Origin: Chloroflexota bacterium
Lineage (GTDB): Bacteria > Chloroflexota > Anaerolineae > UBA3071
Direction of reading: 5' to 3'
Length of the DNA stretch: 20,688 bases
Assembly: GCA_014383605.1 (NCBI GenBank)
Contig: JACNHM010000251.1
Location: 1 to 20,688, forward strand
A program made the position numbers and the translations under genes. Under the pieces are notes generated by a model, which did not search any database, was not told the DNA's origin, and saw nothing but the letters and a program-made list of their open reading frames with translations. Numbering within the stretch: position 1 is the stretch's first letter; every line of letters starts with the position of its first letter. Shown here in pieces: positions 6,085 to 9,955 of this stretch.

Positions 6085-7167
6085 TCACAGCCCCAGCTGA
6101 GACCAATCCAATACAGGGACTCCGACCACAATATCCTGAATGGTGATGAAAATGGCCAGGAGAACGAGGAGCACCATGCCGATGAAGTGAATAGCTCCTT
6201 CGCGCTCCGGAGCCACCCGCTCTCCGCGTATAGCCTCGGCGATGATGAAGAGCAAGCGGCCACCGTCGAGTCCCGGCAATGGCAGCAGGTTGGTCAACGC
6301 TACCGCCGCGTTCAGTATGCCCCCTAATTGAAAGATGACAAACCACCGGCCACTGGCCATAACGTACTGCGCCGCGCTGCTGGCCAGTTGGATGATGCCC
6401 ACAGGCCCCACCGGCCGCGCCTCTTCCAGGGACACAACGCCCCGTAGCAGCAGTAGCGGTAATGACAGAGTAAGCAACAAGAACTGGCCAGTCAGCTTCA
6501 GACCCTGCAGGAAAGCCTGATGCAAGGGGAAACGACGGATGTCTAGCACAGGCTTCAGTCCCACTCCCAGGTGCCCCACCCCCTCCTTCACCTGCGGTTG
6601 GGCCTCGATAAAGACGAGATCTTCCTGCCGGCGCACCACCAATTCGATGACCTCGTTGGGATGGGCTTTCACGTAGGAACTCAAATCATCCATGCCATAC
6701 AAGATCTGGTCATCAATCTGTGTGACGATGTCACCAGCCTGCAGGCCAGCCTCGGCAGCAGCCGTGCCTTCAAACACGTCGGTGATGCGCGCGCCATGCT
6801 GGAGCACAGGGTATCCCACCGTGAAGGCCGCCGTGAACATGACGACGGCCAGCAGGAGATTCATCCCCGCACCGGCCAACAGCACAGCCACGCGCACTCG
6901 CTTGGGGGCAGTAACGAAACTCCCCGCTCCCTCAGGATCATCTTCCCCTTTCAGCCGTACAAGGCCACCCAAGGGGATGGCGTTGATGGTGTATTCCGTT
7001 CCACCCCGGCGAAACAGGGTCGCCAGACGCGGCGGATAACCGAAGCCGAACTCTTCAACGACAACACCACTGCGCTTCGCCACCACGAAATGCCCCAGCT
7101 CGTGGACGAGAAGCATGAGACTCAACAAGATGAAAGCACCAATAGCACCCACAACCGTAGTGATCAT
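6085..7167 (-). CDS. rseP: RseP-like site-2 zinc metalloprotease (M50B)
   Basis: 360 aa, an integral membrane protease that cuts transmembrane substrates, classically anti-sigma factors. The zinc motif HELGH is at 22-26 in the first helix, one PDZ domain spans about 118-190, and the second active-site motif 'NLLPLPGLDGGRLLF' is at 293-307 with D301 as the third zinc ligand. The single PDZ resembles the Gram-positive RasP type rather than the two-PDZ E. coli RseP. The start at 7167 is chosen because GAGAGG lies 6 bases upstream and the first helix begins right after it; the frame extends 32 codons further without such support. It heads the operon with the LysM, HEAT and AEC genes. Its target is not in the window. 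Confidence 0.93.
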   Translation of the reverse strand: MITTVVGAIGAFILLSLMLLVHELGHFVVAKRSGVVVEEFGFGYPPRLATLFRRGGTEYTINAIPLGGLVRLKGEDDPEGAGSFVTAPKRVRVAVLLAGAGMNLLLAVVMFTAAFTVGYPVLQHGARITDVFEGTAAAEAGLQAGDIVTQIDDQILYGMDDLSSYVKAHPNEVIELVVRRQEDLVFIEAQPQVKEGVGHLGVGLKPVLDIRRFPLHQAFLQGLKLTGQFLLLTLSLPLLLLRGVVSLEEARPVGPVGIIQLASSAAQYVMASGRWFVIFQLGGILNAAVALTNLLPLPGLDGGRLLFIIAEAIRGERVAPEREGAIHFIGMVLLVLLAIFITIQDIVVGVPVLDWSQLGL

Positions 7168-7173
7168 GAACAA

Positions 7174-7179
7174 CCTCTC
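7174..7179 (-). promoter_or_regulatory. Ribosome binding site fixing the rseP start
   Basis: GAGAGG, 6 bases before the ATG at 7167. It favours this start over the upstream ATG at 7263, which lies at the -35 box of the likely promoter. Confidence 0.6.
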
Positions 7180-7234
7180 ATATCGTATCCATCCATTGTC
7201 TTTCAACGACGCTCTGACCGTCGGAAGCGCATCT

Positions 7235-7263
7235 ATTATAGTCCCTTCGGTAGGATATGGCAA
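7235..7263 (-). promoter_or_regulatory. Sigma-70-type promoter of the rseP operon
   Basis: TTGCCA (7258-7263, 5 of 6) and a perfect TATAAT (7235-7240) are separated by 17 bases, in the 122-bp gap after the IPK fusion gene. The predicted start near 7228 gives a leader of about 60 bases. It separates the rseP operon from the selA operon. Confidence 0.7.
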
Positions 7264-7289: not shown

Positions 7290-8582
7290 TCAGACCGCAC
7301 CAGATCGGATGACGGTGCCCACTTCCAGGCTGGCATCGCACAGCACGCGGGTCAACAACCCTGCCACCTGACCCGAAATCAAGCGCACCTGCAGATCAGG
7401 CAACTCCTCCAGCAGTGCGCACATCGTCCGCACCTTCGCCAGCATGCCGCCCGTCACGTCCGTGCCATGGGAGCCGCCCAAGATGGCTTCCAGTCCCACC
7501 AGTTGCTGCGGAGTGATCTCGGCAACCACCTGAGCCTCGCCAGCCTGGTCGGTGTCAGAGCGCATCACGCCCGGCACGGCGCCGATCAGCACGAGGCGAT
7601 GGGGCTTCAGCCGGCGCGCCAGCCAGGCGAAGATCTCCTCGGTGGAGATGATGGTGCCGCCGCGTACCTCGTCCAAGGCCACGTCGCCGTAGACCAGGGG
7701 TACCAGGCCACGCTGCAACGCTTCAGCCATAGGACGCCAGTCCAGGGCCACCAGTTCCCCATCGCGGCAGCGGGCCGTGGCGGAAGGCTGTATGCTCCAC
7801 ACGGGCACGCCGGCCTGCCAGAAGGCCGCGGTGACCAAGCCGTCGAGACGTTGGGCGGCCGCCGCCGTCGCGGCAAAGCCCCGCCAATCCGCAGCATCGC
7901 GCACACCGCGGCGTGTGCCGTAGCGCTCCCCGGCCACGTGCCCAAAGGACCCGCTGCCATGTCCCAGAACCAGCCGCAAGGCGGGGCGAGCAGCCAGCGC
8001 CTCCGCCACCTCCTCCGCCAGCCGGCTGATTGCCTCCGGCAGCGCTGTCTCCTCGCGGGTCTTGTCGGTGATCAGCGACCCGCCCAGCTTCAGGAAAAGC
8101 AACTCCTCCTTTGGAGGTTGGAAGTTGGAGGGTGGAGGGTAGAGAGTGGAAGGTGGAGTTCGGCTGACTTGCACTTGTTCGCCGTCCACCGTCACCCAAT
8201 CGCCGGAACGAATCTTCGTTATGTCAATGTTGTCTACCATCGGGATGTCGGCCAGGATGGCGCCCACAGCTACGATGGCCTCGCTCTGGGCATTGATCAT
8301 CGCCGCCGGCGCATGGCCGCTGCGGGCCAGACGCAGGATGGTGTACGATCCCACCGTGCTGCCCTTGCCGCCAGGAAAGACCAGGACGCGTCCGGCGATG
8401 CACTGCCCCTCCAATGGATGCCCAGGTTCGATCACCATTCCCGTCTCCGGGTCCACGCCGCCCAGGAAGCCGATGGGCTGCGGCGAAACCAGGGCTTCCC
8501 CCGCCGCCTGCCCTGCCCGAATCACCCGGCCCACCAGATGGATTGGAGGTTGGAAGTCGGAGGTTGGAGGTTGGAGAGTCAT
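7290..8582 (-). CDS. Aconitase-X swivel (DUF126, phosphomevalonate dehydratase small subunit-like) fused to isopentenyl phosphate kinase
   Basis: 430 aa. Residues 16-137 match the AcnX swivel/DUF126 domain, with 'GRVLVFPGGKGSTVGSY' (64-80) and 'AEAIVAVGAILADIP'-like sequence near 100-114. Residues 161-430 are an amino-acid-kinase-fold isopentenyl phosphate kinase: 'LKLGGSLITDK' (164-174), 'GHGSGSFGH' (207-215, including the His typical of IPK), 'ISTEEIFAWLA' (312-322) and 'TDVTGGMLAKV' (374-384). In the archaeal-type mevalonate pathway the swivel subunit, with a large iron-sulfur subunit, dehydrates mevalonate 5-phosphate, and IPK phosphorylates isopentenyl phosphate to IPP. Swivel homologues also serve hydroxyproline dehydratases, but the attached IPK favours the isoprenoid role. 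The ATG overlaps the selA stop (ATGA), so translation is coupled. Repeat-encoded Pro-rich peptides precede each domain. The large subunit is not in the window. Confidence 0.9.
   Translation of the reverse strand: MTLQPPTSDFQPPIHLVGRVIRAGQAAGEALVSPQPIGFLGGVDPETGMVIEPGHPLEGQCIAGRVLVFPGGKGSTVGSYTILRLARSGHAPAAMINAQSEAIVAVGAILADIPMVDNIDITKIRSGDWVTVDGEQVQVSRTPPSTLYPPPSNFQPPKEELLFLKLGGSLITDKTREETALPEAISRLAEEVAEALAARPALRLVLGHGSGSFGHVAGERYGTRRGVRDAADWRGFAATAAAAQRLDGLVTAAFWQAGVPVWSIQPSATARCRDGELVALDWRPMAEALQRGLVPLVYGDVALDEVRGGTIISTEEIFAWLARRLKPHRLVLIGAVPGVMRSDTDQAGEAQVVAEITPQQLVGLEAILGGSHGTDVTGGMLAKVRTMCALLEELPDLQVRLISGQVAGLLTRVLCDASLEVGTVIRSGAV
8105..8112 (-). promoter_or_regulatory. Perfect Shine-Dalgarno-like motif inside the fusion linker
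   Basis: AAAGGAGG lies on the coding strand just before the IPK domain. In-frame TTG (8102) and CTG (8093) codons follow at 2 and 11 bases. It could allow a separate IPK polypeptide to be started internally, but the spacing to either codon is poor. Confidence 0.3.
8111..8147. repeat. Direct repeat copy A, in the swivel-IPK linker
   Basis: A 37-bp stretch beginning TTGGAGGTTGGAAGT, matching copy B at 8543-8579 in 33 of 37 positions. On the minus strand it encodes 'TLYPPPSNFQPP', the linker between the swivel and IPK domains. Similar G/T/A-rich repetition continues to about 8158. Confidence 0.85.
8543..8579. repeat. Direct repeat copy B, at the start of the fusion gene
   Basis: The second copy of the 37-bp repeat, 432 bp (144 codons) from copy A and in the same orientation and frame. 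It encodes 'TLQPPTSDFQPP' directly after the initiator Met, ahead of the swivel domain, and touches the selA stop codon. Confidence 0.85.
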
Positions 8583-9955
8583 GGCGTTTCCGGCCAGGCT
8601 CTTTGCACGGCGGCCAGCAGCGTGGTGTCTTCCTGCGGCAGCACAGTGCGGGGATCGAGCAGCAGGCGGTTCGCTTCGATGCGGGCGATGACGGGTGGCT
8701 CCTGCGCCCGCAGGCGCGCCGCCAGCGCATCGGGGGAAGCCGGCTCCAGAGCCACGACGGCGGTGGGCAGCATTTGGCCAGGCAGCGAGCCGCCGCCCAC
8801 GGTGGAGTGCGCCACTCGTGTCGTCGCCGGAATACCCACCGCCTGCAGTTGGGCCGCCCAGGCCTCAGCGCGGCCGCGAATGGCCTCCAGCGGAGCGGCG
8901 ATCATCTGCCACACGGGGATTTCCGCCACCGCTTCCTGGCGCAGGTAATGCAGCAGCGTGGCCTGCAACCCCGCCAGCGTGGTCTTATCCACCCGCAGCG
9001 CCCGCGTCAGCGGGTGGCGCCGCAGCCGTTCCAGCAGCGCTTTCTGGCCGACGATGATGCCGGCCTGGGGGCCGCCCAGCAGCTTGTCGCCGCTGAAGGT
9101 AGTCAGCGACGCGCCGGCGGCCACGCTCTGCTGCACGGTGGGCTCGGCGGCCAGACCAAAGGCCGAGGTGTCCAGCAGCGTGCCGCTGCCCAGATCGTTC
9201 ACCACGGGCAGGCCGTGCTCGCGCCCCAGGGCCACCAGTTCGTCCAGCGTCACGTCCTCGGTGAAGCCGCTGATCTGGAAGTTGGAGTGGTGCGCCACCA
9301 GCAGCAGCGCCGTGGCCGGGCCAATGGCGGCTGCAAAGTCTCGCCCGTAGGTGCGATTGGTGCTGCCCACCTCCACCAGCCGGGCGCCGCTCTGGGCCAT
9401 CACCTCCGGGATGCGGAAGCCGCCGCCGATTTCGATGAGCTGGCCACGGGAGATGATGACCTCCCTCCCCTTGGCCAGGGCGGTCAGGGACAACAACACC
9501 GCCCCAGCGTTGTTGTTGACCACCAGTGCCGCCTCGGCCCCGGTCAGGCGGCAGAGCAGGTCTTCGGCGTGGCTGTAGCGGGAGCCGCGATGTCCCGCCG
9601 CCAGGTCGTATTCCAGGTTGCTGTAGCCCGTGCCCGCCTCCACCATGGCCTGGCGGGTCGCCTGGCTCAGGGGCGCCCGGCCCAGGTTGGTGTGAATGAT
9701 GACACCGGTGGCATTGATGACGGGACGCAGCGTGGCGCGGGCCAGGCTTGTCAACCGCGCCCGGGCCCCGGCGGCCAGAGCGTCCGCCGCAGGGCAGGGT
9801 TGGCCGCCGGCCAAGATAGCCTCTCTGGCCTCGTCCAGGGTCTCGCGGATGGCCGTGATCGTCAGCGTGTGACCATACCCGGCCAGGGCCTCAGCCATCT
9901 CAGGCTGTTGCAGCAGGCGGTCCACACCGGGCAGCTTGCGCAGTTCTTCTGGCAT
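8579..9955 (-). CDS. selA: L-seryl-tRNA(Sec) selenium transferase
   Basis: 458 aa, full length for SelA. This PLP enzyme converts seryl-tRNA(Sec) to selenocysteyl-tRNA(Sec) using selenophosphate. Family signatures are all present: 'VINATGVIIHTNLGRA' (79-94), 'VVNNNAGAVLLSL' (145-157), 'SRGQLIEIGGGFRIPEVM' (169-186), 'EVGSTNRTY' (195-203), 'NDLGSGTLLD' (253-262) and the PLP lysine K291 in 'FSGDKLLGGPQAG'. GAGG lies 5 bases before the ATG. Its TGA overlaps the next gene's ATG. The partners SelB, SelD and tRNA-Sec are not in this window, so the pathway must be completed elsewhere or be incomplete. Confidence 0.95.
   Translation of the reverse strand: MPEELRKLPGVDRLLQQPEMAEALAGYGHTLTITAIRETLDEAREAILAGGQPCPAADALAAGARARLTSLARATLRPVINATGVIIHTNLGRAPLSQATRQAMVEAGTGYSNLEYDLAAGHRGSRYSHAEDLLCRLTGAEAALVVNNNAGAVLLSLTALAKGREVIISRGQLIEIGGGFRIPEVMAQSGARLVEVGSTNRTYGRDFAAAIGPATALLLVAHHSNFQISGFTEDVTLDELVALGREHGLPVVNDLGSGTLLDTSAFGLAAEPTVQQSVAAGASLTTFSGDKLLGGPQAGIIVGQKALLERLRRHPLTRALRVDKTTLAGLQATLLHYLRQEAVAEIPVWQMIAAPLEAIRGRAEAWAAQLQAVGIPATTRVAHSTVGGGSLPGQMLPTAVVALEPASPDALAARLRAQEPPVIARIEANRLLLDPRTVLPQEDTTLLAAVQRAWPETP

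Follow-up and report, generated by a model that had tools for sequence, protein, structure and literature searches.

One open reading frame in the 20,688-nucleotide stretch of Chloroflexota DNA analysed here (the window) appears to join the small subunit of phosphomevalonate dehydratase (PMDh) to an isopentenyl phosphate kinase (IPK), so that a single bacterial protein would take part in two steps of the archaeal-type mevalonate pathway that do not follow one another. The locus raises the questions of whether such a fusion is genuine, whether both halves would serve the same pathway, and how their genes came to be joined.

Domain structure and neighbours of the fused gene

The uninterrupted frame of 430 codons that a reading of the sequence alone had placed at positions 7290–8582 was confirmed exactly, and was found to lie on the minus strand, which that sequence-only reading had not given. 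It encodes a swivel domain and a kinase in 430 aa, and the frame itself, the domain profiles and the PDB matches together show that the frame does not exist by chance and identify it as a gene for a PMDh small subunit (DUF126 or AcnX swivel) fused to IPK. All four signature motifs reported earlier were located in the protein (PGGKGSTVGS at residues 70–79, KLGGS at 165–169, GSGSFGH at 209–215 and TDVTGGM at 374–380), and in the domain search both domains matched their profiles. AlphaFold2 (20 sequences) gave two confident domains, with a mean pLDDT of 84.2 and a pTM of 0.64, and values below 50 at residues 1–9, 143–157 and 370–376.

The kinase domain (residues 160–428; positions 7299–8105, minus strand) is delimited by profiles, a PDB match and the AlphaFold2 model. 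It matched Pfam AA_kinase over residues 162–393 with 103.9 bits (cut-off 24.9) and the NCBIfam equivalog NF040647, isopentenyl phosphate kinase, with 152.2 (cut-off 120), and its best PDB match was the isopentenyl phosphate kinase 3LL9 at 111 bits. H208 and H215 of the stretch HGSGSFGH, in which we take the histidine of the HGxGxxGH motif to be the substrate-phosphate histidine of IPK, were invariant in 20 of 20 fused proteins. In the fused protein P0025 the KLGGSxxTDK stretch is scrambled as after a local frameshift, the remainder being conserved. In P0228, a protein of 547 aa, a PF00697 domain stands C-terminal to an archaeal-type IPK; by eye the joint is of low complexity, and a chimera or a frameshift may lie behind this protein.

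Upstream lies selA, encoding L-seryl-tRNA(Sec) selenium transferase (8579–9955, minus strand), a neighbour outside the fusion; its stop and the start of the fused gene share 4 bp, the ATGA with which selA ends. By eye, selA is also found upstream of DUF126-IPK in L001, L004 and L009, and the ATGA overlap is shared by the window and L001. Directly downstream on the same strand is a gene for an rseP-type site-2 protease (6085–7263, minus strand), assigned from its reading frame and domain profiles. In bacteria with the MEP pathway rseP often adjoins dxr; here the rseP-type gene adjoins the gene for the last mevalonate enzyme.

The two domains are normally encoded by separate genes

The usual state of the pair was assessed in 396 genomes from the class of G001, the genome nearest to the window, which also carries the fusion. 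The fused protein was matched in 354 of them, nearly all listed rows through the kinase half, and a DUF126 match was present in 166. A threshold of 107 bits or more defined 116 high-scoring DUF126 matches in 115 genomes; among the matches listed, an IPK lay directly downstream on the same strand of 41 of these and elsewhere in 26, and no place could be given to an IPK for 49. The fusion is rare, and the DUF126-IPK pair is normally two genes, often overlapping. Of the 34 distinct pairs, drawn from the 44 loci with both genes among 93 read in detail, 32 are split; the sequence-only reading had stated for archaea that the two are normally separate proteins. The other two are G001 and G055, the latter counted as fused on a single 373-aa ORF that holds both domains and runs off its contig. 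In 15 of the 32 split pairs no stop has closed the DUF126 frame by the point at which the IPK match starts, which amounts to an out-of-frame overlap.

The gene for the AcnX large subunit lies directly upstream, in the order AcnX-DUF126-IPK, in 15 of the 41 adjacent pairs and elsewhere in 17, including G001, G055 and G002; some of these 17 sit at contig ends (e.g. G012, G017, G022), and there a fragmented assembly may conceal a link. In nine of the 41, AcnX had no place among the matches listed or was not found. In G001 the AcnX gene and the fused gene are on different contigs, both well inside long contigs, and no close split sister of G001 was found in its family (2 genomes). The archaeal MAG G010 carries UbiX-UbiD-AcnX-DUF126-IPK in a single run (contig C23), and the ORF that follows the IPK in this run (L123:5182-6243) is perhaps a type II IPP isomerase, a guess from its first residues.

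Several side observations were made at these loci. A second, lower-scoring class of DUF126 (below 98 bits) occurs in the class of G001, several members lying beside an AcnX large subunit (e.g. G250, G210, G217); these are perhaps of the hydroxyproline type or some type II. The contig end L114:1-1669 (G055:C518) carries a tandem pair of DUF126 copies that share their N-terminus, only one of them joined to IPK; this reflects either a true duplication or an assembly effect. L003, a contig binned as Rhodospirillales, holds a split pair; the IPK tree places it with an Anaerolineae row, and judging from this it is probably a mis-binned Chloroflexota contig.

Recurrence of the fusion

The window's own protein cluster, P0002, is listed at 100% identity, with two residues differing by eye, and comprises 7 member sequences on 5 contigs. 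Both domains were present in 20 of the best 120 of 7590 matches to the window protein; a profile of the fused proteins added P0146, and a search started from P0146 yielded three more, P0200, P0261 and P0285. At least 24 distinct clusters, 23 beyond P0002, thereby carry both domains, a count that is a lower bound drawn from the best 120 of 7590, 7503 and 531 matches. The fusion recurs in other assemblies, with 16 members in P0007 and 15 in P0013. P0014 (L001:8001-9371) is deposited as a protein that begins inside the swivel domain and is annotated as isopentenyl phosphate kinase only, so that gene calling hides the fusion. P0146 and P0200 group among IPKs several of which are named Candidatus Altiarchaeota, and from this placement the fused architecture seems not to be confined to bacteria but to occur in bacteria and archaea alike.

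The fused clusters are spread over several branches of the Chloroflexota-type IPKs. On a tree built from the IPK domains of 101 rows (22 of them fused, 31 split, 12 lacking DUF126 in the locus and 36 unlabelled; P0049, P0060 and P0061 left out), 9 changes of the fused label were required, at least 6 of them forced by well-supported branches. With archaeal rows added and IPK-only rows of unknown context thinned beforehand (105 rows, 25 fused; P0261 and P0255 left out), 10 changes were required, at least 6 of them forced, and a tree of 49 rows (21 fused, 28 split) gave 7 changes, at least 5 forced. These were quick trees, with several unlabelled rows inside the window clade, and their label changes are gains and losses of the fusion taken together, which they do not separate. 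On the 49 rows, from which eight long-branch or archaeal-type rows had been left out (L010, L143, L150, P0025, P0146, P0200, P0261 and P0285), the placing of all fused rows in one clade, a group named after the fusions were known, was rejected at a cost of 332 log-likelihood units (p-AU 9e-63).

The distribution suggests more than one origin of the joint, among bacteria as well as archaea. A single old fusion that was later split many times is possible, though every such split would have required both a stop and a start to arise anew.

Origin and possible benefit of the joint

The linker of the window protein (residues 143–157, pLDDT below 50) is encoded by a tandem array of 6.7 copies of a 7-bp unit, TGGAGGG on the plus strand, at positions 8112–8158 of the minus-strand gene, and the N-terminal tail by 4.9 copies of TTGGAGG on the plus strand, at 8543–8576. 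In the TRF analysis these were the only period-7 tandem arrays in the window. The linker of the sister L001 is formed by a different array, about 18 copies of CAATCCG, and the clade mates P0003 to P0006 have repeats of a similar kind in their translated linkers (by eye, protein only). Arrays of 7 bp were also present in the DUF126-IPK gap of the split pairs L003, L044 and L045, and arrays of period 7 or 14 in 19 of 94 sequences scanned. In 12 kb of G001 (L110:1-12000) nine separate 7-bp arrays with differing units were observed, two of them in the gap between UbiD and mevalonate kinase; the G001 line is a repeat-rich lineage. Among the titles retrieved on 7-bp repeats, none concerned such arrays in Chloroflexota.

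The units CCTCCAA and CAATCCG are free of stops in every frame of the coding strand, as opposed to the unit listed for the split pair L044, which contains one. Since the units are stop-free, an array can bridge two genes if its length keeps the frame, and this suggests that the growth of a 7-bp array made the window's joint. Linker lengths across the fused proteins range from about 11 to 67 residues. Outside the window clade, 12 of 15 fused proteins measured have linkers of 11–20 residues (P0008 has 45, P0009 55 and P0011 26), and no repeat was apparent by eye in any of the 15, so that arrays would explain the window's joint and not all joints.

A joint of this kind may bring no advantage. We give about an even chance to a neutral origin, in which both domains work without benefit from their connection and a frame difference or stop was lost through small indels or 7-bp array growth in the absence of counter-selection; such an origin competes with a useful tether and not with the fusion as such. 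The open DUF126 frame in 15 of the 32 split pairs means that a small indel could fuse them, the linkers vary widely in length, arrays already occupy the gap of three split pairs, the tree shows frequent changes of the fused label, and a linker that is repeat-derived and predicted to be disordered is expected of a neutral joint too. Recurrence in distant lineages, including archaeal-type ones, is less expected if the joint is mildly harmful, though it does not show a benefit. A more ambitious possibility is a recurrently selected scaffold, in bacteria and archaea alike, in which the flexible linker would hold PMDh heterodimers to an IPK dimer, the decarboxylase would act between them, and anhydromevalonate phosphate and isopentenyl phosphate would pass between steps 1 and 3 within one assembly; this we regard as doubtful.

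The linker also bears on whether the gene makes one polypeptide or two. If the kinase were also, or mainly, translated from a start inside the linker, the Shine-Dalgarno-like AAAGGAGG before an in-frame TTG at the kinase start could serve for initiation, and a TTG that directly follows AAAGGAGGAG in the linker might give rise to some separate kinase. The spacing from GGAGG to TTG is, however, 2 bases, and a Shine-Dalgarno spacing of 2 bases is too short for a good start. Moreover, a motif of this kind is absent from the corresponding place in the sister L001, and the position of the split-kinase Met (MSEL in L002) is occupied by Lys once and by Ser five times in six fused proteins of the window clade (the window, P0003-P0006 and L001). 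Internal initiation is consequently judged improbable, and a single two-domain chain is preferred.

A PMDh-type small subunit in a probable archaeal-type mevalonate pathway

The swivel half (residues 14–140; positions 8163–8543, minus strand; delimited by profile, PDB match and AlphaFold2) matched Pfam AcnX_swivel_put (PF01989) over residues 37–116, covering the full profile (1–80 of 80) at 117.6 bits (cut-off 27), and passed the NCBIfam equivalog for DUF126, NF003046, only just (164.9 against a cut-off of 163). Its best PDB match was TK1248, the small subunit of T. kodakarensis AcnX (7CNR/7CNS), at 130 bits, compared with 67 bits to hydroxyproline dehydratase. The small-subunit contacts of mevalonate-5-phosphate (MVA5P) in TkAcnX are Ser62, Thr63, Val64 and Leu27, and in the hydroxyproline enzyme Thr72 and Trp35 stand where TkAcnX has Val64 and Leu27 (PMC8184944, section 12). 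By the offset of the PDB alignment, S75, T76, V77 and L40 of the window protein correspond to these four TkAcnX residues; in an alignment of 20 fused proteins the first three are invariant and L40 nearly so. These comparisons support a swivel half of the PMDh type rather than the hydroxyproline type. The earlier proposal that the fusion ties DUF126 to isoprenoid synthesis, and not to hydroxyproline metabolism, is accordingly favoured by the substrate residues, the higher TkAcnX scores and the IPK neighbourhood.

Pathway content was read in relatives, of which G001, the nearest and likewise fused, is a fragmented MAG of unstated completeness, so that absences there are weak. Ten genomes were searched: G001, G055, G002, G009, G039, G004, G005, G006 and G008 (Chloroflexota records or members of the class of G001) and the archaeal MAG G010. 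HMG-CoA reductase (HMGR), GHMP kinases, UbiD and UbiX were each found in 10 of 10, and matches to UbiD and to GHMP kinases adjoin in six (G001, G055, G004, G005, G009 and G039). DXR and IspH were each found in none of the ten genomes (10 of 14 controls matched in either case), and the DXP pathway was judged on these two enzymes. Diphosphomevalonate decarboxylase (TIGR01240) was found in one of the ten, G004, with 8 of 14 controls matched and 2 over the cut-off. AcnX was present in 9 of 11 genomes searched and was not found in the other two, G003 and G007.

In G001, seven GHMP kinases were typed. One is a mevalonate kinase (MVK; 234 against a cut-off of 163) beside a UbiD (351.4 against 244.85), a decarboxylase whose substrate we infer from the adjacent MVK gene; the other six GHMP kinases matched best to galactokinase or heptose-phosphate kinase models, and no model for phosphomevalonate kinase or decarboxylase matched among the seven at E ≤1e-10. 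The AcnX large subunit of G001 scored 315.7 bits to TkAcnX and 244.6 to the hydroxyproline enzyme. By eye it keeps Gly48, Val49, Ser50, Asn53, Asn79, Glu129, Ser130, Ser131, Lys361 and Tyr365 together with three Cys, the change of Ala47 to Ser being the only one among the listed MVA5P contacts (contacts from PMC8184944). Its only NCBIfam match was the hydroxyproline dehydratase model NF051439, at 325.7 against a cut-off of 700, and no PMDh large-subunit model was among its NCBIfam matches.

Together with an HMGR that comes from the ten-genome search, G001 thus holds the archaeal-type set of HMGR, MVK, both PMDh subunits, a UbiD-type decarboxylase and IPK, and DXR, IspH, diphosphomevalonate decarboxylase and a phosphomevalonate kinase model were not found in it. 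The bacterial route through AcnX, UbiD and IPK that had been predicted from the window, with its absence of DXP and classical enzymes, is therefore supported by G001 and its relatives, including the AcnX large subunit on which the prediction had been made to depend. The gene content of G001, the domain scores and the PMDh-type residues likewise uphold the original description of a PMDh small subunit fused to IPK. In G001 no DUF126 other than that of the fused gene was found (all 12 candidates scored), nor any other IPK (all 10 scored); if the pathway runs, both halves must work. Very probably, then, both do work, and in an archaeal-type mevalonate pathway.

An enzyme of the hydroxyproline dehydratase type in place of PMDh is very improbable. 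NF051439 does match the window protein (90.6 bits) as well as the G001 large subunit, both far below its cut-off, and the lower Pfam-scoring DUF126 class occurs in the same bacterial class. Against this stand the PMDh-type residues, the higher scores to both TkAcnX subunits, the IPK neighbourhood and the distribution of AcnX (E ≤1e-100), which is present in 106 of the 115 genomes with high-scoring DUF126 compared with 44 of the other 281. A sequencing or assembly error that deleted a stop or shifted the frame, a doubt that had been raised about the linker, is scarcely credible, since, for all that the fused copies come from assembled contigs, with a duplicated DUF126 at a contig end of G055 and a scrambled kinase stretch in P0025, the fusion is found in at least 24 distinct clusters from several sources, some of them with many members.

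We therefore hold with good confidence that the gene makes a single two-domain protein, whose swivel half would serve PMDh with a separate AcnX, whose kinase half would make IPP, and whose joint would derive from neighbouring genes. The swivel domain would dock on the separately encoded large subunit to give PMDh, which would convert mevalonate-5-phosphate into trans-anhydromevalonate-5-phosphate; a separate UbiD-type decarboxylase would provide the step in between, and the C-terminal kinase would turn isopentenyl phosphate into IPP. The ancestors would have been two neighbouring, often overlapping genes, which other lineages carry downstream of the large-subunit gene (AcnX-DUF126-IPK); in the window lineage that gene would lie elsewhere, with a stop-free 7-bp array filling the junction in frame. 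Both activities, an uncut and unsplit chain, this order of events and the partner genes in the window's own organism are what we infer from sequence comparison.

Comparison with known systems

The archaeal-type pathway in Chloroflexota is already known, and the sequence-only reading had mentioned reports of such enzymes in the phylum: the archaeal mevalonate pathway of Candidatus Promineifilum breve has been published (Kanno et al. 2024, as cited in PMC13001223). The window differs from this member of the same phylum with the same pathway in that the small subunit for the first of the two steps and the last kinase form one protein. IPK is present and active in Chloroflexi within an alternative mevalonate pathway, and the route described for Roseiflexus castenholzii proceeds by direct decarboxylation of mevalonate phosphate, not via PMDh and UbiD (PMC3857490). 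The window kinase resembles the R. castenholzii IPK and 3LL9 over the full kinase domain and passes the equivalog cut-off; the solved IPKs that it matched are single-domain chains of 249–286 residues, unlike the fused kinase of the window. No mention of a swivel-kinase fusion was found in the accessible portions of the literature, which included PMC10040528, PMC8184944, PMC13001223, PMC3857490, PMC11052028 and PMC11129491, Kanno et al. 2024 being outside that scope. What the window adds, on the comparisons above, is a true and recurrent fusion inside a known pathway, and very probably a bifunctional one.

The swivel half is alike to known small subunits of PMDh (AcnX type IIb), such as TK1248 (PDB 7CNS) and Ape_2089, across the whole swivel domain and in the residues of the MVA5P site, and a large-subunit partner is present in relatives. 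The subunits of type II AcnX are usually encoded in tandem or by neighbouring genes (PMC10040528), whereas the window's small subunit is joined to a kinase and the large subunit of G001 is on another contig. The fusion physically links DUF126 to isoprenoid synthesis in bacteria, and it belongs to a wider pattern, since 106 of the 396 class genomes combine an AcnX large subunit with a high-scoring small subunit even though PMDh has been called archaea-specific (PMC10040528).

In AcnX type I the swivel domain likewise has a C-terminal extension, but there the extension is its own catalytic large subunit (PMC8184944), in contrast to the unrelated kinase of the window protein. The nearest parallel is IspDF, a common natural fusion of non-consecutive steps of the MEP pathway (PMC13001223), with enzymes and a pathway that are unrelated to those considered here. 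The recurrent joining of swivel and kinase offers a natural repeated experiment, comparable to IspDF, on why enzymes of non-consecutive steps become fused, and the fused protein and its split sisters provide ready pairs for asking whether a tether alters flux.
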